A DNA stretch of 20,257 bases, from IMG/VR virus record IMGVR_UViG_3300042939_000109, positions 1 to 20,257 of that record; one strand, 5' to 3'. This document shows, piece by piece, positions 3,347 to 17,263 of this stretch (within the stretch, counting starts at the first letter, position 1; the number at the start of each line of letters is the position of its first letter). The position numbers were made by a program, and so were the translations under genes. Below the pieces are notes generated by a model that was given only the letters and a program-made list of their open reading frames with translations, was not told the DNA's origin and did not search any database. This DNA comes from a virus.

Positions 3347-4683
3347 TCAGGAATCAGGGAACGGCGCAGTCGGTGGAGTGAAGTTGGCGGTGTAGCGGGC
3401 GACGCCTTTGGTGATGCGCACTTCGTCGATGTAGCCAACAAAATACCTAGGCGACACACTGGAATCTCCTAGCCTGATTTTGGATAGCGTCAAAGTGGAG
3501 CTATCAGTCTTGGTGCCTAAGCCTACTCCGTTTTTGTAAAGCGTGCTAACGCCTGAACTTCTAACCAGGGCAATATGGTTCCATTCATTCAAATCAAAAG
3601 AAAGACCGGTAGCGAATAGAGCGCCACCGTTTAGCTGCACTCCTGGGGCAAATGAGCTTGCCCTAATAAGCAAATTGCTTTCGTTGTTTGCTGATAGAAC
3701 TGTATCAAGCTGAGTGCCGCCCATGCCTGTCCTAAAAACCCAAAACTCAATTGTAAAATCTCCGTCGAAAGTAAATGCACTATTGCTCGGTGTAATAATT
3801 GCGCCACCGCTAACGAAATTGCCTGATGACCCGCCAAACTTCGACTGCGCTGTCGATACCGTCACCGTGCCGCTTTCGATTGACATCGAAAACGCATTTG
3901 AACTGCTGTCTGTAAACGTCGTCGAGCCGTTGCTGCCATCCATGTGCAGCAGCAGCGAGACGTTAGCGAAGTTGGGATCTGTCGAGGATGTCCCGCCATC
4001 TGCTGCTCCAGCTACCAGGCTCAGGCTGATAGTTTCGTTAATTCCAAGCGCTCCAGTATTTGCGGATCCTCCTATGGCAAATCCTAAATACAAGGCTCTA
4101 CTGATTCCATCAATCTCAACATCACCGAACACCTCGCCAGGCTCTAGCGACAGCGCAATGGTTTTATTGATGCCGTTCAACGCAACAAACGCCGCGCCTC
4201 CGGCCACGGACAGCGTAATCGCTTCGCTGATCCCGGGCGCATACTCGCCACTATTAGCAGCGCCAGCGCTCAGCCGCAGCCGCAGGAACAGGTCGGCGCC
4301 AACCACGCTGGCGGCAACAGGCGGTACGGTCTCAAGCGTCAGGCTGACGTTGTGGCCACCGCAGGGGAGATCCTCAACTGAGCCTGGCCCCGCGTACCGC
4401 CAGATGTAGTTGCCTGGCACGTAGTCGGTGATGCTGCCGTAGCTCACCACCTCAGTCGGCAGTGCGAACGACCTGAACTCGCCGCGCCGGCCGTTGTAGT
4501 GGTTCCAGATGTCCAGCATCTGCGCCTGTGTTAGGCCCAGGAATGTCAGCCGCAGTTGTGCCGACAGAAAAACATTGCTGTGCCTGACGCGATTCTGCGC
4601 GCCGCTGAATCCGCTGAATGCCGTGGCAGGATACTCGCCAGGGGTGAAGGTGCGAGAGCTTGGGATTAAGGCGGGGAAGGTGG

Positions 4684-4687
<4 letters not shown>
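3347..4687 (-). CDS. Tail adhesin with gpM-like N-domain, repeat stalk and C-terminal LamG domain
   Basis: The start is ATG 4685-4687, in an ATGA overlap with the J-like gene, giving 446 residues; seven upstream codons in frame were left out. Three parts are visible. Residues 1-125 are a paralogue of the protein at 2528-2899. Residues about 131-235 hold degenerate repeats of about 21 residues, beginning GISEAITLSV, GINKTIALSL, GISRALYLGF and GINETISLSL. Residues about 238-446 are a concanavalin A/LamG-like beta sandwich (SLLLHMDG, FTIEFWV, WNHIALVRSSG, YIDEVRITKGVARY) common at phage tail tips as a sugar-binding module. A likely job is receptor binding at the distal tail, with the N-domain anchoring. 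The LamG part is clearly less GC-rich than its surroundings (26 of 60 bases at 3661-3720). Confidence 0.88.
3983..4297 (-). repeat. Degenerate ~21-residue tandem repeats in adhesin stalk
   Basis: In the adhesin, GI-x2-x-I-x-LS-like units begin at residues 152, 172, 194 and 215, spaced 20, 22 and 21. A weaker related unit lies at 131-151 (FLRLRLSAGAANSG). The units look like short beta-strand modules linking the anchor domain to the LamG head. DNA identity between units is low, so the duplication is old or selected only at protein level. Confidence 0.7.
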
Positions 4688-6989
<2,302 letters not shown>

Positions 6990-6993
<4 letters not shown>

Positions 6994-7451
6994 AACCGGC
7001 ACCCCACGCCCATGAGCGCTGTCGTCAGTGTGCGGGGCGGCACTGTTGCGCCGACCGGGGCCAGTGCGCTGCCGAGCTCCAGGGTGAACGAGGTGACCGT
7101 GGCGGCAGCGCCCACCACCTGGCCGTTGAACTGGGCCACGAGCTCCTGGCCTGCCACTGGGCCAGCAGCTGCGGCGAAATTATCGAACTGGTAGACCTGC
7201 AGCTCAGCGACCCAGCCTGCCGCCCGCGCCCGCTCGCACACCACCACGGCCCGGGGTGTGGCGGGGAGCCGGACGCTGATCGCCTGCTCCGTGCCGCTGT
7301 CGCCCTCCACGAAACCGTCAGCGATCAACGCCACGTAATCCCACTGCGCTGAGCTCCAGGTCACCTGCGTGGACCAGTACGACTGCCAGCGCTCACGCAC
7401 GATTCCCGATGCGTCGGTGAGCTTGAGGAACTGCGCCTGTGCCCTGGCCAT
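6990..7451 (-). CDS. Minor tail protein between tape measure and tail tip (unknown family)
   Basis: A 153-residue protein beginning MARAQAQFLKLTDASGIV, with a GGAG at suitable distance before ATG 7449-7451. It starts three bases after the tape measure stop and ends in an ATGA overlap with the J-like gene. The sequence is mixed alpha/beta, with WQSYWSTQVTWSSAQWDYV near the N-terminus and an alternating hydrophobic region further on (VTSFTLELGSAL). I see no membrane span or nuclease/peptidase motif. It is the only gene in the slot where lambda has L, K and I plus M, so a baseplate or distal tail role is likely from position only. Confidence 0.72.
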
Positions 7452-7454
7452 CGC

Positions 7455-9446
7455 TCAGCTCCACCCCAGCGCGGTGCGCGCCTGTGGTGTGCGCAGGGTG
7501 CCCACCACCTGCTCAGCGACCTGCTGCAGGCCCCGTTCAAAATCATCCATCGAGACCCAGCGGGAGCCGTCCTGCTGCTGCATCACCGGGCCCGTGGTGA
7601 CGTTGATCTGTGGGGTGGTGGCGCGGGTGGGAGTGCTGGTGGAACCGCTGGAGGGAATCACGCTGCCGCCCCTGGCGCCGCCCAGGAAGCGGGAGCTGGC
7701 GGCCTGCATCTTGGACTCGGGAATGATGTACTCGCGCTCGCGGCGCTCACCCACCAGGGCCAGGGTGGGGCGATCGACAATGCCACCTTCGGCGAAGGCG
7801 GGGACGGGCAGGATCGGGACTCTGCCGATGGGGCTCCTGCCCACGGCAACGGCCAGCCGGTTAAACGCGTCGATCAGCACGTTCACTAGGCCGCCTACTC
7901 GGTTCACGGCATTCACCACGAACGTGAGCATTCCGCGCACGGCGTTCTGGATTCCGGTGATCATCCCGTTCCATATCCCGCTGACGAACGTGGCCACGCT
8001 CTGCATTGCCCGAGGCAGGAACTCGGTCAGGGTTGACCAAGCGTTGCGGATCGGTTCGACCAGATAGGTTTTGAACGCTTCACCCATGGCAGTCCAAATA
8101 CCCACCACCGCATCACGCCACGTATCGACGATGCCTTGCAGGGTGGAGAAATCGCCGCTCCAGATCTTGCGGATTTCATTGCCCCATGCCTTAATTGCGC
8201 CGGTGAGGGTGTTCAGGCTGGCGGTGACGATGCCCACCACCGCATCCCACAGCCGCACGAACGGCTCGCGGGCGAACTCCGTCCACTTCCACAGCCAGGA
8301 GACAAACTGCGTCAGGGGCTCGCGGAACGCAATCGCCATGGCCACCACGGCGGCGATGGCCAGCACGGTCCAGCCGACGGGGCCAGAGAAGAATGCGATC
8401 AGGCCGGGGAGCAAGGTGGCCGTGAACCATCCGAGCAGGCCCAAGAATGCCGCCTTGATCGCCACGATGGCAGGCACCACGGCGCCAGCCCAGCCGGCGA
8501 TGGTGGCGCCGATGTTCAGGCTGCCAATAATCATCATCGCCTGGCCAATCCCTGTGATAACTGAAGCGACCGGGCCCGCCGCTACAGCAAATGCAACCAG
8601 CGCAAGCGCCGTTGTCTGGATTGGCTCGGGGAGCTGGGCGAAAGCCGTAACCAGTGACGTGATGCCGCGCACAAACGGCACAAGAATTGGCAGCAGATTC
8701 TCGCCCAGCTCGGTTCGCAGATCCTTTAGCGCTTTGTCAAACTCCTGCATTGCGGTCGGCGGCGGCGGCACGATTTTGTTCAGTTCGGCGGCGGCTTGAA
8801 TCATCACCTCCGTTGTGATCTTGCCCTCGCTGCCCAGTTTTTTGATTTCGGACGCCGACACGCCCATCACCTTGGCCACGGCTTGGCCCACAGCAGGCAT
8901 TCGCTCCATGATCGAGCGGAGTTCGTCGCCCTGCAGCTTGCCAGATCCCAACGCCTGGCTCAGCTGAAGCAACACCTCACTGGTGTCGTAGGTCGAGAGG
9001 CCGACTTGCTTGGCGGCCTTGTTGACGCCAAAGAACACCGTTTCTATGTCCTGCAGACTGACACCCATCGGCCGCAATCTGCCGTAGAGATTGGTCACGG
9101 CATTCTGCGCTTCAACGTTGCCGAGGGCGAACTGTTCTGCCGCACGCGCAGCCACATCAGTCACGTCCGCTACCTCGCCGTATTGCTTGGCAAGAGCGTT
9201 GATCCTGATGCTGGACTGCTCAGCCTCAATGCCGGCATTCAGCAGGGTGCGCCCAACAGTGGCGAGGCCGATTGTTGCGGCAACGTCAGCAACGCCGCGC
9301 AAGGCGCCGCGCATTTGGCCGAAGGGGGAAACAGAAGCACCGGCGGACTTGCCAACGCCGGCCAGATCGGCGCCGAGTTTCTGCAGGGCATTGCCGCCGT
9401 CAACCTTGGCGACGATCCTCAGGACGGCATCCATGTTCATCGCCAT
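7455..9446 (-). CDS. Tape measure protein
   Basis: A 663-residue protein. Residues about 70-215 match the tape measure domain seen in many siphoviruses: LYGRLRPMGVSLQDIETVFF, LLQLSQALGSGKLQGDELRS, IMERMPAVGQAVAKVMG and LGSEGKITTEVMIQA. A long run of hydrophobic helices follows (about 270-375, including VVPAIVAIKAAFLGLLGWFT), as expected for proteins that enter the host membrane during DNA injection. Near the C-terminus is AFAEGGIVDRPTLALVGERR, a motif common at the end of tape measures. Length sets tail length; at about 0.15 nm per residue this gives a tail near 100 nm. The start ATG overlaps the chaperone stop as TAATG, with AGAGGGA upstream as a plausible ribosome-binding site. Confidence 0.96.
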   Translation of the reverse strand: MAMNMDAVLRIVAKVDGGNALQKLGADLAGVGKSAGASVSPFGQMRGALRGVADVAATIGLATVGRTLLNAGIEAEQSSIRINALAKQYGEVADVTDVAARAAEQFALGNVEAQNAVTNLYGRLRPMGVSLQDIETVFFGVNKAAKQVGLSTYDTSEVLLQLSQALGSGKLQGDELRSIMERMPAVGQAVAKVMGVSASEIKKLGSEGKITTEVMIQAAAELNKIVPPPPTAMQEFDKALKDLRTELGENLLPILVPFVRGITSLVTAFAQLPEPIQTTALALVAFAVAAGPVASVITGIGQAMMIIGSLNIGATIAGWAGAVVPAIVAIKAAFLGLLGWFTATLLPGLIAFFSGPVGWTVLAIAAVVAMAIAFREPLTQFVSWLWKWTEFAREPFVRLWDAVVGIVTASLNTLTGAIKAWGNEIRKIWSGDFSTLQGIVDTWRDAVVGIWTAMGEAFKTYLVEPIRNAWSTLTEFLPRAMQSVATFVSGIWNGMITGIQNAVRGMLTFVVNAVNRVGGLVNVLIDAFNRLAVAVGRSPIGRVPILPVPAFAEGGIVDRPTLALVGERREREYIIPESKMQAASSRFLGGARGGSVIPSSGSTSTPTRATTPQINVTTGPVMQQQDGSRWVSMDDFERGLQQVAEQVVGTLRTPQARTALGWS

Positions 9447-9814
9447 TACAGTTTCCCTCTTTTTGCGGGCTTCGGCTCAGCGGCCTTGTTGATCAGTTCC
9501 TTAGCGCGGCTCTCCATGATCTGCAGATCCTCCAGAGCCTGGCGCCGGTTACCCACAGCGTAAAGATCCATCATTTGCAGGACTACGCCATAATCCAGGC
9601 CGATCACACCAGAGCCGCCAACCCTCCACTGGGTCTGGCACTGCAGGAACAGCATCACGGCGTCTTCGTGCTCGGGCCAGACCTCGAACTGCTTGGGCTT
9701 GGTCACGCTCTCCGGCAGACAGGATGCGTCCGCTCCGTAGGCCTGCAGGTCCGCCAGTAGGTCGTCATTGGCGCCGCCGTCACCGCCCCACCAGTGATCG
9801 ACAGCGCCCGTCAG
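9446..9814 (-). CDS. T-domain extension of tail assembly chaperone (GT), DUF1799-like, made by -1 frameshift
   Basis: This frame has no convincing start of its own. The GTG at 9704-9706 lies inside a frame that stays open back into the upstream chaperone gene, where the slippery run AAAAAAC sits right before the TGA. Slippage by -1 at 9814-9820 joins the 123-residue upstream product to 122 more residues starting LTGAVDHWWGGDGG, for a 245-residue fusion. The extension contains FEVWPEHEDAVMLFLQCQTQ and GLDYGVVLQMMDLYAVG, resembling DUF1799 proteins found between tail tube and tape measure genes. In lambda the equivalent GT protein binds tape measure and tail tube subunits during tail assembly. 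The fused form is inferred from sequence, not shown experimentally. Confidence 0.88.
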   Translation of the reverse strand: MTGAVDHWWGGDGGANDDLLADLQAYGADASCLPESVTKPKQFEVWPEHEDAVMLFLQCQTQWRVGGSGVIGLDYGVVLQMMDLYAVGNRRQALEDLQIMESRAKELINKAAEPKPAKRGKL

Positions 9815-10182
9815 TTTTTTCTCTTGGCCACCTCCATGGACTCAAACCATGCCTTAACAATCTGGCCCGCGATGGTGGGAAGCTCCAGCAATTGGCCTAG
9901 GGCTGACTCACTGAAGGGGACTTCCTTGCCAGTGTCGTCACTGATTCCACTCCATCCAATCAGGATCTCGCAAGGAATCTTGGCCATCACTTGCTCATCT
10001 TCAAGCTCGCCCTTTCCGGCGTCAATCGCTCTCGCTAGCCTGATGATTTCATCAATTCTTGTCTGCGGCAGCCGCTTGAACTCCGCATCAAACGAGTGCT
10101 TTTCACGCCGGCCGCCATCAACCGGGATCAGCAGAGGGACCGGCCAGGTGTACGAAGCCGACTGCTTCAGAACGAAGGACAT
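9811..10182 (-). CDS. Tail assembly chaperone (G-like, zero-frame product)
   Basis: A 123-residue protein between tail tube and tape measure genes, ending AKRKN then TGA. It contains FDAEFKRLPQTRIDEIIRLA, then CEILIGWSGI, and VPFSESALGQLLELP, a layout typical of siphovirus tail assembly chaperones. In the lambda pathway this short form is made in excess and a minor frameshifted form carries the extra T domain. The zero-frame stop lies directly after the slippery heptamer. There is no clear ribosome-binding site in the 26-base spacer before ATG 10180-10182. Confidence 0.9.
   Translation of the reverse strand: MSFVLKQSASYTWPVPLLIPVDGGRREKHSFDAEFKRLPQTRIDEIIRLARAIDAGKGELEDEQVMAKIPCEILIGWSGISDDTGKEVPFSESALGQLLELPTIAGQIVKAWFESMEVAKRKN
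9814..9820 (-). promoter_or_regulatory. Programmed -1 ribosomal frameshift slippery site A AAA AAC
   Basis: On the minus strand the codons AGA AAA AAC TGA place A AAA AAC in the exact X XXY YYZ register, immediately before the zero-frame stop at 9811-9813. After slippage the reading continues CTG ACG GGC and stays open for 122 residues through the DUF1799-like region. About five bases downstream, GGCGC can pair with GCGCC about 35 bases further on, with an inner TCAC/GTGA pairing, so a stimulatory stem is possible. Gene order (tail tube, chaperone, tape measure) is the classic location for this recoding. Confidence 0.9.
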
Positions 10183-10208: not shown

Positions 10209-11153
10209 TCAGGTGAGCACCAGGCTCATCTCGTTGTTGGCTGCAGTCGCCTGCGCCATGTAGGGCACGTTGAGCATCTGAATCCCGTCGCTGTCGCTGT
10301 AGGTCGGGGAGTCAATGTTGCACTGGCCCATGCTCAGGGTCACGATGTTCCCTGCGGTCTGGCCGTGCTGCCAGGCGATGGTGCCGGTGGCCTGGCTGAT
10401 CACCTGGGCGAAGTAGTCCTTCTCACCAGAACCGGAGCCGATCACCGGGGCCTCAATCACCGCTTCGCCAGAGGGCAGGCGGTTGGTGATGGGGTACTGC
10501 TGCGTGCAGCCCGCCAGCTGGCGCAGGGGGATCTCGTTGCCCAGGTTCAGGGTGAAGGATTCCATGCAGGCCGTGGTCAGGCCCAGGATGTTCACGCTGG
10601 TGGTGTTGGCGTTGTTGACGATCACCGGCGTCGCCTGATTGGCGAAGGTCGGGGTCAGCTGGGCCTCGGTGGCGGCAGCCACGTACTCACCGAAGAACTC
10701 GAAGCTGATCCTGGGAATCTCGCCGGCCGCCAGGTTGAAGGTGGCGTTGCCACGGCAGCCCTTCAGGCGGTGGCGGTTGCCGTCGTTGTTGAAGTCGAAC
10801 GACACGCCAACGATCCCGGTCATCGCCGGGGCGTAGGTCACTGAGGTGGTGGCCACCACCGTCTCACCGAACCCGCAGGCCCGCAGCAGCCGGCCCCAGC
10901 GAGGGGCAGTGCCGGCCGTGCCCGATCCCGCCAGTTCCACGTCAAAGGTGACCGTGCCCACCCGCTGGCCGACGATCTTGGGCCGGTTGCCGAAATACGG
11001 CAGCACCAGCTCGCGATCGATCAGGCCTGCGTCAAGGGGCTGACAGTCCAGGTTCTGCACCAACAGGGCATCGGTGCCGGCGACCGTCTCGAAGGTGCCG
11101 TAGCTCGCCTCCACTGCCGCCAGCAGAAGGCGCCTATGCGTCGATTTCGTCAT
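10209..11153 (-). CDS. Major tail tube protein
   Basis: A 314-residue protein lying between tail terminator and chaperone genes. The N-terminal part has AAVEASYGT, DALLVQNLDCQPL, LIDRELVLPYFGNRP, VTFDVELAGSGTAGTAP and WGRLLRACGF, recurring features of a family of siphovirus tail tube subunits. The remainder is beta-rich with no membrane span. It would polymerise around the tape measure as hexameric rings. It is longer than many tube proteins, so an extra surface domain after residue 150 is possible. The start ATG at 11151-11153 lies within the last 20 bases of the small upstream gene, which suggests coupled translation. Confidence 0.92.
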   Translation of the reverse strand: MTKSTHRRLLLAAVEASYGTFETVAGTDALLVQNLDCQPLDAGLIDRELVLPYFGNRPKIVGQRVGTVTFDVELAGSGTAGTAPRWGRLLRACGFGETVVATTSVTYAPAMTGIVGVSFDFNNDGNRHRLKGCRGNATFNLAAGEIPRISFEFFGEYVAAATEAQLTPTFANQATPVIVNNANTTSVNILGLTTACMESFTLNLGNEIPLRQLAGCTQQYPITNRLPSGEAVIEAPVIGSGSGEKDYFAQVISQATGTIAWQHGQTAGNIVTLSMGQCNIDSPTYSDSDGIQMLNVPYMAQATAANNEMSLVLT

Positions 11154-11324: not shown

Positions 11325-11765
11325 CTATGGAGCGCCCACGCTGAGATCCGTCACGCTGGTGCGGTAGCGGATCCGGTACGACAGCACCTCCACCACAGCG
11401 GCGCCATCGGCGGCATCGAACCCCGGGTTGCGGCTTAGGGGCCAGATGTCCATCGCCAGCCCACCTAGGCTGCGATCGGCCATTAGGAGGCTGTGAACGG
11501 ACTGCACGACGGGATCCGCCACCTGGTCAGGGATCAGGCCACGAGCGTAGACGGCGACCACCAGCGTCAGGGTGTGGTCGATTTTGCAGGTGCTGACGGC
11601 CTCGGGACCGGATGACTCAGGGCCGGGCTCAACGATCACCGACGGCGATTCGCTGCGGCTGAAAGCCTCTTGGCGGCTTCGATACACCCGCCCGCTCACG
11701 CCGCTGGTGGCCGCCAGGGTGGTGTCGATGTGGGCGAGGATTTGTTCGCGTTTGGTGGTGGTCAT
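11325..11765 (-). CDS. Tail terminator / tail completion protein
   Basis: A 146-residue protein placed directly before the tail tube, as lambda U is. Features include an amphipathic start (REQILAHIDTTLA), GRVYRSRQEAFSR, PSVIVEPGPES, a strand THTL-like LTLVVAVYARGLIPDQ, DPVVQSVHSLLMADRSLGG and a C-terminal YRIRYRT. This pattern occurs in siphovirus proteins that cap the finished tail and join it to the head. Assignment as U-like or Z-like cannot be settled without a structure search. Start ATG overlaps the upstream stop as ATGA. Confidence 0.85.
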   Translation of the reverse strand: MTTTKREQILAHIDTTLAATSGVSGRVYRSRQEAFSRSESPSVIVEPGPESSGPEAVSTCKIDHTLTLVVAVYARGLIPDQVADPVVQSVHSLLMADRSLGGLAMDIWPLSRNPGFDAADGAAVVEVLSYRIRYRTSVTDLSVGAP

Positions 11766-12610
11766 GGGATCGCCGCCGCGATGGCGTTGATCAGAGCGGT
11801 CACGCGGGCGTCGAGCAGGGCGAGGTTTAGGGATTCGCCGATGCTGTAGAAGGCTAGGCGGGCGTTTGAGAAAGCAGCGGGGGATCCTTGGTTATTTAGA
11901 GCAAATACCCAATTTGTTATGTTGTCAGCAGTCGTAGAAGCTGATGCAGTTATTGCGTTGGAACCAGATATGCGAGCAGTGTACTCGCTTCCTGAACTTC
12001 TTGAAGCGCCAATGAGGGTCGGCGTGTTTAGCGAAGCTGTGCCGACATCTTGAAAAGTATCTGTGCTGGGTAGGCTCCTAAATCGGCCAGCCGTGCCCGT
12101 AAATCCTAAAGTTGATGTACCCGCAAAAGACACAGTAGATCTACCACCCAAAAATAATTGAGACGTTAATGCGGCTAGGCTCGCATATACGCAAGCGTGG
12201 CGATTATTCTGCGGGTCAGCATTGTTATTCCTGTTGCTGTTCAGATAATTATCTGTTCCGTTTCCCGCCGTCCCCGTCCTTCGGTTGTAGTTCCATCCGC
12301 CTTCCGTGCCAAACCGAGTCGGCGCCGCCCCCACCAACGGCACCAACGCACCAGCCAGCGTGCGGGCACCGGCCATGATCGGCGCGGCCTTGATGATGCT
12401 GTTGGCTTGGCTCAGCACGCCGCCGCTGGTGCCTAGGTCGCCAACGTTGATCGAGTCGCGGATGAACACGTCGTAGGCGTCACGCACGCCAACCTCTAGA
12501 CCCAGCGTGTTGCCCGCTGCTACGTCAGCAGCAACCACCCGGTCGATGTAGTCCTGAACAGGGCCGATGTAGGCGCTAAACCTCCCCGTTCCAACCCAGA
12601 TAATCGCCAT
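11762..12610 (-). CDS. Putative virion structural / fibre-associated protein
   Basis: A 282-residue protein. The N-terminus has QDYIDRVVAAD and VGVRDAYDVFIRDSI. The central part includes ARTLAGALVPLVGAAPT, YNRRTGTAGNGTDNYLNSNR and NNADPQNNRHACVY, a composition seen in phage surface proteins with a carbohydrate-binding style beta fold. The end reads AFYSIGESLNLALLDARVTA. Bases about 11880-12290 are AT-rich compared with the gene's flanks (24 of 60 at 11881-11940 against 46 of 60 at 12901-12960), so the middle may be a separately acquired module. It is coupled by TGATG and ATGA overlaps to its neighbours. The function is inferred from architecture and position and is uncertain. Confidence 0.72.
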   Translation of the reverse strand: MAIIWVGTGRFSAYIGPVQDYIDRVVAADVAAGNTLGLEVGVRDAYDVFIRDSINVGDLGTSGGVLSQANSIIKAAPIMAGARTLAGALVPLVGAAPTRFGTEGGWNYNRRTGTAGNGTDNYLNSNRNNNADPQNNRHACVYASLAALTSQLFLGGRSTVSFAGTSTLGFTGTAGRFRSLPSTDTFQDVGTASLNTPTLIGASRSSGSEYTARISGSNAITASASTTADNITNWVFALNNQGSPAAFSNARLAFYSIGESLNLALLDARVTALINAIAAAIP

Positions 12611-15283: not shown

Positions 15284-17263
15284 TCAGACGTTCTTGGAGC
15301 GGTAGAACCCGCGGAAGTCCTTCACCGCAGCGCCGAAGTCAAATCGGGCCAGCAGTTCCACACCATCGGGGTCGCGCTTCTCGGTGGTCGTCACCGTGGG
15401 GCCTTCCTCGCCGGCCAGGTAGCCGTACACGATGCCCTCCACAGCGCCGGGGCTCACGGCCAGATACCACACATCGGCATTACCGTCGAGGCGAGGCTCA
15501 ACGATCAGCTCCATGTTGGCGGTCTGGGCATTCACCACAGGGCCGTTGTCGCCGGTGCGGGCGGAAGGTGCGAAACCGGACGGGAACAGGAACTGCAGAG
15601 CGGTGCTCTCCAGATCCGAGGGCACCATTAGATAGGAAGGCGTGAGGTTGATGGTGTTGCCAGCCAGGTCGGTCTGCTTGCGCATGGCCTTCTTCGCGGT
15701 GTTGAACCCGCTGGTGGTAATCGCCAGGCCGGTGGAGCCGCCCATGTTGTTGTGGGCTGCATTGAACAACGCCACGCTGTCCACGCTGGTCACGGCGTTG
15801 CCGGTGATCAGGCCCCAGATGATGTTGCTCTCAAGGCGGCGGAATCCGCGGCCGAGCATCTCAGGAACACGCTCCAGAGCGCTCAGATCATCGTTGATGA
15901 TGGCCTGGCGGGTAACGGTCACCTTGCGGGCGTAGGTGGCCAGCTTCCAGGTGTGCTGGGCCTCAACCAGAGTGCCGGCCTTGTACTCGCCGCCTTCGAG
16001 CAATGCCTCAGGGGTGAGTGCGCCAGCCACGATCAAATCGTTGGCGTTTTTGAAGTCGGGCAGGTTGCGCTGACGGGCGATCGGTCGCCAGGTGTGGGGC
16101 TCCTCCTGATAGGCAGCGTCGAGAGTCTTGCCGGCCAGGTTGGAGAACAGCAGCGGGAAGTCGCTGGTGCTGTGGAAACCACGGCTGACCAGTTCGGTCT
16201 TGCTCATGCCCCGGGTGTTGGTGCCGCGGGATTCCAGATACTGGCGGGTCAGTTCCAGCAGGGTGTAGGAGCGGAACTCGCGGCCCAGGTCGGCGTCGTC
16301 ACCCTTGAGGGTGCCGGGACGGATGCGGGCCTCCAGGCCCAGGCTGATGCCGCGCATCAGGGTGTCGCCGCTGTCGCGGGTCACCTCGACGCGGGCGGGA
16401 TGACCCAGAGGGGCGGGGCCGTCAGCGGCGCGGGTGTCGCCGCCCTCAAGGCGCAGGCGCATCAGGCGCACGGCCTCACGGCTGCACTCGGTCACGGTCT
16501 TGCCGGAGCGCACCAGCTCATCAGTCTGGGCGTCGGTCAGGCCAGCATCGCGGCCGAGACGCAGGATCTCGTTTTCGCGGCGGAGTTCGGAAGCGGTGCG
16601 CTGCAGCTCGGCGTCTGCGGCGGCCACGGGGGCGGGGGAAGGGGAAGGATCGGCAGCGCGGGCCTGGGTTGCAGGCTGCTGCTCAGCCGGATCACCTCCG
16701 GCCTGGCTGTTCAGGTTGTCGGGCATGGAAGTGTCCGGTGCGGATGATTGATTGCGGGTTTGCGCTTTCGCGTCGAAGGGCACGCCCACCAGGCTGAGCT
16801 CCATTGGCTCCCAGTCCAGTGCGCGGTAGGTCGGCGGTTGGCCATCGGCGCTGCGGATCGGGTCAGACCACCTGTGGACCTGATACCCAACCGAGACATT
16901 GCGGATGATGCCGCTCGCCACATCACGGAAGATCGGCTCCACCTCCGCACGCTCCGAAAAACGCACGCGGGCCCGGCCCTCTCCGTTTTCAATCCAGGCC
17001 CGCTCCACCACCCCGAGGATGTTGGACAGGTCGGCGGATTGATGGCTGTTCAACAGCGCGGCGCCGTTGTTCAGCCGGTCGAGGCGCACGGCATCGGTGC
17101 TCATGTCGAGCTCCTCAAACCAATCGCCGTCGAACCAGGAAGCACGCCGCCCCCGGGCGCCCGTGGTCCAGGTCAGCTCGATGGTGCGAGCATCAGGATT
17201 CAGCGTCGCCGGCTGAAAAGCCGCACGCCGCATGTCACCGGGCTGGGGGTGTTGGTACTCCAT
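15284..17263 (-). CDS. Prohead protease-major capsid protein fusion
   Basis: A 659-residue protein starting at ATG 17261-17263. Residues about 15-168 are an HK97-type (S78/U35) head maturation protease: ALLNSHQSAD with candidate catalytic H74, a FSERAEVEPIFRDVASG block, IRNVSVGYQVHRW with candidate nucleophile S124, and MELSLVGVPFDAKAQ. Residues about 170-290 are proline/alanine-rich with a predicted coiled coil (ELQRTASELRRENEILRLGR), likely the scaffold-type delta region. Residues about 300-659 are the HK97-fold capsid protein (ending FDFGAAVKDFRGFYRSKN). After shell assembly the protease would cut itself and the delta region away. An internal Met at residue 180 could start a protease-free form. 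It follows the portal after a 16-base spacer with GAGG upstream. Confidence 0.92.
   Translation of the reverse strand: MEYQHPQPGDMRRAAFQPATLNPDARTIELTWTTGARGRRASWFDGDWFEELDMSTDAVRLDRLNNGAALLNSHQSADLSNILGVVERAWIENGEGRARVRFSERAEVEPIFRDVASGIIRNVSVGYQVHRWSDPIRSADGQPPTYRALDWEPMELSLVGVPFDAKAQTRNQSSAPDTSMPDNLNSQAGGDPAEQQPATQARAADPSPSPAPVAAADAELQRTASELRRENEILRLGRDAGLTDAQTDELVRSGKTVTECSREAVRLMRLRLEGGDTRAADGPAPLGHPARVEVTRDSGDTLMRGISLGLEARIRPGTLKGDDADLGREFRSYTLLELTRQYLESRGTNTRGMSKTELVSRGFHSTSDFPLLFSNLAGKTLDAAYQEEPHTWRPIARQRNLPDFKNANDLIVAGALTPEALLEGGEYKAGTLVEAQHTWKLATYARKVTVTRQAIINDDLSALERVPEMLGRGFRRLESNIIWGLITGNAVTSVDSVALFNAAHNNMGGSTGLAITTSGFNTAKKAMRKQTDLAGNTINLTPSYLMVPSDLESTALQFLFPSGFAPSARTGDNGPVVNAQTANMELIVEPRLDGNADVWYLAVSPGAVEGIVYGYLAGEEGPTVTTTEKRDPDGVELLARFDFGAAVKDFRGFYRSKNV

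Follow-up and report, generated by a model that had tools for sequence, protein, structure and literature searches.

The virus record IMGVR_UViG_3300042939_000109 is a single contig of 20,257 bases, referred to here in its whole length as the window. On its minus strand, a tail assembly chaperone gene ends with the slippery heptamer A AAA AAC flush with its stop codon, and a second open reading frame (ORF) carrying the DUF1799 domain runs on in the -1 frame (Table 1). This junction is almost certainly a programmed -1 ribosomal frameshift site of the lambda G/GT type. The codons at the slip read AGA-AAA-AAC-TGA, the register that a tandem -1 slip requires. An open -1 frame extends from 9841, nine codons before the slip, to 9446, and a shift would join 123 and 122 residues into a fusion of 245, presumably a minor product.

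The zero-frame protein matches the PHROG 313 family, 'Tail assembly chaperone', over residues 40–110 (E 2.9e-6), its better match being PHROG 569 (E 8.8e-19), which is labelled tape measure; Pfam and NCBIfam gave no match for this half. The -1 segment matches DUF1799 (PF08809) with an E-value of 3.6e-19 and 69.2 bits, against a gathering cut-off of 26, and nothing in NCBIfam. The order of the genes is tail tube, chaperone, DUF1799 and tape measure, which places the chaperone between the tube and tape measure genes. The first ATG, GTG or TTG in the -1 frame of the window is the GTG at 9706, the 37th codon past the slip, from which an ORF of 86 residues retains most of DUF1799.

Table 1. Features of the chaperone–DUF1799 junction and its neighbouring genes in the window.
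Feature	Coordinates	Strand	Evidence or remark
Tail assembly chaperone, zero-frame gene, 123 residues, ending AGA AAA AAC TGA	9811..10182	-	PHROG 569, PHROG 313
Slippery heptamer A AAA AAC, in register, flush with the stop	9814..9820	-	reads GTTTTTT on the plus strand
Zero-frame stop codon TGA	9811..9813	-	sequence
-1 extension after the slip, 122 residues, DUF1799, ending at the stop before the tape measure gene	9446..9814	-	PF08809, PHROG 680
Predicted stem-loop, candidate stimulator (10 base pairs, 1-nucleotide bulge, 6 base pairs, 6-nucleotide loop)	9770..9808	-	folding
GGAGG, Shine-Dalgarno-like, candidate stimulator, 10 nucleotides upstream of the heptamer	9831..9835	-	sequence
Tail tube protein (Phage_tube_2), upstream neighbour	10209..11153	-	PF18906, E 3.4e-18
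Tape measure protein, downstream neighbour	7455..9446	-	PF20155 (TMP_3), E 6.6e-31; TIGR02675

A programmed -1 frameshift of the tail chaperone had been proposed in a sequence-only reading of the window, which pointed to the in-register heptamer directly before the zero-frame TGA, to a -1 frame of 122 residues yielding a 245-residue fusion, to a DUF1799-like segment without a good start of its own and to a possible downstream stem. The minus-strand letters 9820–9814, the reading frame to 9446, the PF08809 match, the late position of the GTG and a predicted fold just past the heptamer agree with this description, and related chaperone pairs align at the site as described below; the proposal itself accords with gene order, geometry, heptamer, conservation, selection on the -1 frame and hairpin. 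The GGAGG element was absent from its list.

A heptamer of the form XXXYYYZ flush with its own stop is unique to the chaperone gene among the 18 window genes examined. When the codons of the chaperone gene were shuffled 20,000 times, any of four classic heptamers came to occupy the final two codons in 0.055% of the shuffles. Another in-register motif, G GGA AAC at 12260–12266 within the gene 11762–12610, was set down to chance, the -1 frame there being open for only 3 codons.

Conservation of the junction and exchange of its heptamer

Relatives were collected by four scans of viral contigs, two of which kept the best 80 each, and from eight phage records, giving 288 loci with the window (L numbers below are locus labels). 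Five loci did not show the pair (no upstream ORF found in three, no DUF1799 match in two), and the remaining 283 were merged by identical 120-nucleotide junctions into 168 distinct ones, or 143 when merged by a 60-nucleotide core. In 167 of the 168 distinct junctions, the window included, the DUF1799 ORF lies at -1 and a slippery heptamer is found in the overlap. The heptamer is flush with the stop in 165 of the 168, as A AAA AAC or G GGA AAC; by type, the 167 junctions comprise 125 with A AAA AAC, 41 with G GGA AAC and one with A AAA AAG. The recurrence of the heptamer is not a selection effect, because the scans placed no heptamer requirement; the loci are related to each other. Clustering at 70% identity left 44 representatives, 43 of which carry the heptamer flush with the stop, as compared with an expectation of about 6e-5 per site based on codon frequencies, and at 40% identity the count was 10 of 11. 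Elsewhere in the chaperone genes of the 44 representatives, XXXYYYZ motifs occupy 10 of 4,947 codon positions. Twelve further named phages, phage T1 included, all have the -1 geometry, with a canonical heptamer in nine of them, flush with the stop in eight; two of the twelve, HK578 and JLBYU27, are near-identical at the junction. The one distinct junction with +1 geometry, L264, was excluded from the clustering, hairpin, Shine-Dalgarno (SD), start, tree and overlap analyses and from the selection counts.

This recurrence bears on the idea that the two frames result from chance, from a pseudogene or from a sequencing indel splitting one ORF, which could be entertained for the window, a single virus contig. 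The same -1 step recurs in 167 of 168 junctions and is also present in the S-CBS1, S-CBS3, S-LBS1, RcapMu and T1 records, which makes the idea so improbable as to be negligible.

The make-up of the heptamers speaks to a second alternative, transcriptional slippage, in which RNA polymerase would add an A in the A6 run so that some mRNAs carried the fused frame. A single added A does yield the identical -1 frame, and L264 combines an A9 run with another frame. The run in the window is nonetheless only A6, below the A runs of more than seven cited for transcriptional realignment in the pertinent part of one source (PMC3711429), and the hairpin and GGAGG suit ribosomes. Moreover, the 41 relatives with G GGA AAC have no run that long, which rules out long homopolymers as a general explanation. 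We consider transcriptional slippage very unlikely at this site.

The programmed ribosomal shift is further illuminated by the history of the heptamer. In a tree inferred for 86 representatives with the heptamer codons removed (a quick tree, supported only by the Shimodaira–Hasegawa-like approximate likelihood ratio test and with some long branches), heptamer identity needs at least nine changes while slipperiness is kept, and the starred branches alone force at least four changes for each of the two main heptamer types. The window sits in a clade of 11 rows whose other members are nine with G GGA AAC and one with A AAA AAG. It differs from L018 by four adjacent bases in and beside the heptamer, preceded by 19 identical bases and followed by 30, a pattern that hints at short recombination swapping heptamers. 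Such a repeated exchange of three bases of a motif at one place, with slipperiness kept, strongly indicates that the slip itself is under selection. It also offers a natural series, at one fixed site, for what a phage frameshift signal must keep. In L051, at about 3350–3381, A AAA AAG stands six codons before a later stop; the clade-typical G GGA AAC is lost there and the -1 frame retained.

The coupling of heptamer and stop is tight: although the -1 frame offers a median of 23 open codons ahead of the stop, the heptamer directly abuts the stop in 165 of 167 cases, where random placement within the overlap would lead one to expect about 19. It is conceivable, although we hold it rather doubtful, that the slip site of DUF1799 chaperones is locked to the stop, that the stop is a working part of the signal beside the hairpin by way of slow termination, and that heptamers are swapped as units by short recombination. 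Shared descent of the position or the spacing to the hairpin could explain the lock instead, and L286, L051 and ZDD2 do without it. The tight coupling, taken with the repeated swaps, is possibly a new point.

Selection on the -1 segment and candidate stimulators

Twenty-nine of the 167 junctions, 25 of them unique, have equal spacing, with 35 codons between the slip and the GTG, and were used to measure selection. Over this stretch the ratio of nonsynonymous to synonymous polymorphism (pN/pS), calculated on the 25 unique sequences, is 0.18 in the -1 frame versus 1.59 and 1.79 in the other frames. The -1 frame has no stops between slip and GTG, while the others contain means of 2.1 (counting the stop of the gene itself) and 3.3. 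As judged from these sequence comparisons, purifying selection acts on the stretch ahead of the GTG in the -1 frame and in no other, and this frame is probably translated from the slip onward. Residues from the slip on align in many relatives. A separate set of 47 representatives less than 75% identical, with named phage records left out, gave alignments that hold 45 (A4, minus L209 and L286), 46 (A5, minus L287) and 44 (A6, minus L114, L117 and L118) of them.

The predicted structure of the -1 segment has a mean predicted local distance difference test score (pLDDT) of 91.9, and its first two helices, residues 2–10 and 16–25, lie before the GTG. By block from the start of the segment the pLDDT is 94, 74 and 92, block 11–20 being the less sure one. 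The model matches viral 'tape measure chaperone' entries from Solomon (210 residues, E 6.6e-5) and Scapp (236 residues, E 2.7e-3), whose lengths would fit fused forms; the Solomon paper states that the chaperone and a programmed frameshift were identified (PMC8407766). The model of the chaperone half (pLDDT 90.4) compares with the HK97 chaperone 2OB9 at Z 2.8, with a root-mean-square deviation of 5.4 over 82 aligned residues and 4% identity, below unrelated rows. A PDB sequence search with profiles of both halves returned chance-level matches only, Foldseek found no match of the chaperone model in the PDB at E 0.001 or better, and the best VIA-align hits were too weak to use (3fgx at Z 5.2 and 5ir0 at Z 4.4 for the chaperone, Z 4.0 for DUF1799).

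These data decide against the view that the junction makes two separate proteins, the downstream ORF starting at GTG 9706 or being re-initiated after the TGA. The product of 86 residues would still hold most of the domain, and separate ORFs are annotated in the records of S-CBS1, S-CBS3, T1 and others. Yet the 36 codons ahead of the GTG are conserved as protein, with the two predicted helices among them, and in 134 of the 167 junctions the -1 frame has no ATG, GTG or TTG ahead of the slip or in the first 5 codons past it. A separate start also leaves the heptamer unexplained, and we regard this alternative as highly improbable.

As for elements that could promote the -1 shift, the predicted stem-loop begins 5 nucleotides after the heptamer, and the 74-nucleotide stretch containing it folds at -32.9 kcal/mol. 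Hairpins were compared with a stricter control than shuffling, namely synonymous codon sampling that preserves both the -1 protein and its pool of codons. Against this control, the window reaches a z-score of -3.03 and the 44 representatives a mean of -1.56, as compared with -0.34 for 132 control windows (p 4e-9). An uninterrupted helix of at least 7 base pairs occurs 3–10 nucleotides past the heptamer in 35 of the 44 representatives, whereas the null gave a mean of 12.0 and a maximum of 20 of 44 in 200 draws; some members, such as L058, L258 and L259, do not have such a stem. The stems fall into several registers, with a pair sum of 39 in 16 of the 35, 42 in 7, 48 in 4 and others in 8. In a count restricted to one register (columns 7–15 with 26–34), the covariation score was 0.284, a value attained by none of 500 shuffles, the best slid version scoring 0.223 at +3. 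In the same register 72.7% of cells are paired versus 66.7% when shuffled, and the changes on both sides of a pair (51 of 500 shuffles as high) and the pair types (188 of 500) are unremarkable. We take the one-register covariation as support and not as proof, as related sequences can exceed shuffles without any structure. Rfam gave no match within 9600–10000 up to E 1. Upstream of the heptamer, the predicted duplex of GGAGG with the anti-SD sequence has an energy of -10.6 kcal/mol. SD-like pairing in the 44 representatives shows a small mean excess over the synonymous control of -0.92 kcal/mol versus +0.34 at control sites (p 1.3e-5), and the site is weaker than -4 kcal/mol in 9 of the 44. Judging from such folding and pairing estimates, the hairpin is a likely stimulator and the SD-like element a possible one.

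Several observations weigh against a programmed ribosomal shift. The sequence-only reading had named homologues with a separate downstream start and no conserved slippery site as evidence to the contrary. The window shows no early start and carries the heptamer, but an early ATG, GTG or TTG is present in 33 of the 167 junctions, including the near relatives L003, L004, L047 and L098, and three of the 12 further named phages, Koroua (L292), VAC112 (L293) and AHS24 (L299), keep the -1 geometry with no XXXYYYZ heptamer in the overlap. A second start may be used in the early-start junctions; the window has none. In L264, the DUF1799 ORF lies at +1 after an A9 run, the chaperone stop being at 2882–2884 of that locus; this may reflect an indel in one contig, from assembly, or a switch to transcriptional slippage in that lineage. 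According to the passage of a review that deals with it, A AAA AAC is much less shift-prone than A AAA AAG in Escherichia coli (PMC5009743). The folding of the window stretch reaches only z -1.45 against dinucleotide shuffles, stem covariation on 15 close relatives was not above shuffles, and RNAalifold on the 44 divergent sequences gave no consensus pairs, in our opinion because the stem uses several registers.

Known frameshift systems and a proposed mechanism

The lambda-type frameshift in tail chaperones was reportedly treated by Xu in 2004 and Levin in 1993, and the heptamer of lambda G/GT is G GGA AAG. The window differs from lambda in its A AAA AAC, in its DUF1799 extension and in the shift being flush with the stop. 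Shifts of this type in tail chaperones are well established, and the window shares with lambda a -1 shift close to where the chaperone gene ends, which in lambda gives a low-level fused form linking the tape measure and major tail proteins, as set out in the relevant part of the review (PMC5009743). The window is an ordinary, well-conserved instance of this known mechanism, found here in an unannotated virus related to cyanophages of fresh and marine waters.

The two heptamers of the family are also in print elsewhere, each time in the portion of the source concerned. Both A AAA AAC and G GGA AAC are listed for haloarchaeal viruses (PMC5009743), and one or the other, flush with the stop, is given for gp12/gp13 of Acinetobacter phage Loki (PMC5313236). 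The Loki chaperone resembles the -1 segment weakly in structure (E 0.089); Loki differs by an extra gene between the chaperones and the tape measure and is not one of the 11 records that the chaperone half matched. The same pair of heptamers appears in the related Caulobacter phages phiCbK (AAAAAAC) and Colossus (GGGAAAC) (PMC3556154); the Colossus chaperone is again a weak structural match (E 0.038), and no Caulobacter phage is among the 11 records. In Burkholderia phage KL1, gp18/gp19 carry GGGAAAC directly upstream of TGA with a stem-loop predicted in the next 35 bases (PMC3483164), and KL1 differs by a further tail gene ahead of the tape measure. Genes 49/50 of Rhodobacter phage RcapMu form a homologous pair whose record marks a 'potential -1 frameshift' and DUF1799; the heptamer there is G GGA AAC and the upstream protein is 28% identical.

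The best named matches of the chaperone half are the cyanosiphoviruses S-CBS1, S-CBS3 and S-LBS1, all with A AAA AAC TGA followed by DUF1799 at -1, and the frameshift is unmarked in all three annotated stretches. Their records and that of T1 show DUF1799 with no join, and in the part of another paper that lists it, DUF1799 is a separate gene after the chaperone and the word frameshift is absent (PMC9658991). A literature search on S-CBS1, S-CBS3 and cyanophage frameshifting brought up no title or abstract on this shift among the matches listed, and we make no claim that it is unreported. For a cyanophage-like group from the environment, and for many DUF1799 chaperones, the case is strong that the domain is expressed as a frameshift extension; annotations starting at a downstream codon therefore cut off conserved residues.

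In its layout the signal appears to work like that of E. coli dnaX without being a member of that class, with GGAGG and a stem-loop on either side of the heptamer; dnaX differs in its A AAA AAG and in its gene and purpose. The SD-like element of dnaX has a spacing of 10 nucleotides. The combination of an SD-like element, an A-rich heptamer and a downstream hairpin in dnaX is described in the corresponding part of a published account (PMC3711429).

We infer slippage in the host and its rate, a role for each stimulator and functions for the two forms, as follows. Most ribosomes would terminate at the TGA and release the chaperone of 123 residues. A fraction would be paused by the stem-loop at 9808–9770, and perhaps also by pairing of GGAGG with 16S ribosomal RNA, and the Lys and Asn tRNAs would re-pair in the -1 frame after a one-base backward slip on A AAA AAC. 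The slipped ribosomes would read on through DUF1799 to complete the fusion. On the lambda model, the role of the short form would be to coat the tape measure protein and that of the DUF1799 tail on the long form to bring in tail tube subunits; both forms would depart before tail completion.

Neighbouring genes of the window

All genes examined here lie on the minus strand. Besides the tail tube, chaperone and tape measure genes, they include those for a terminase large subunit, a lambda-type portal, a capsid protein, head-tail attachment and a tail terminator, as well as an HNH endonuclease and a C39-like peptidase. The stretch 15284–17263 is a single ORF of 659 residues in which the capsid domain occupies only residues 357–656; we take it that the first half may be a fused protease. 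A protein of 772 residues (gene 4684–7002) contains a run of 19 glycines at residues 516–534, corresponding to window positions 5401–5457.
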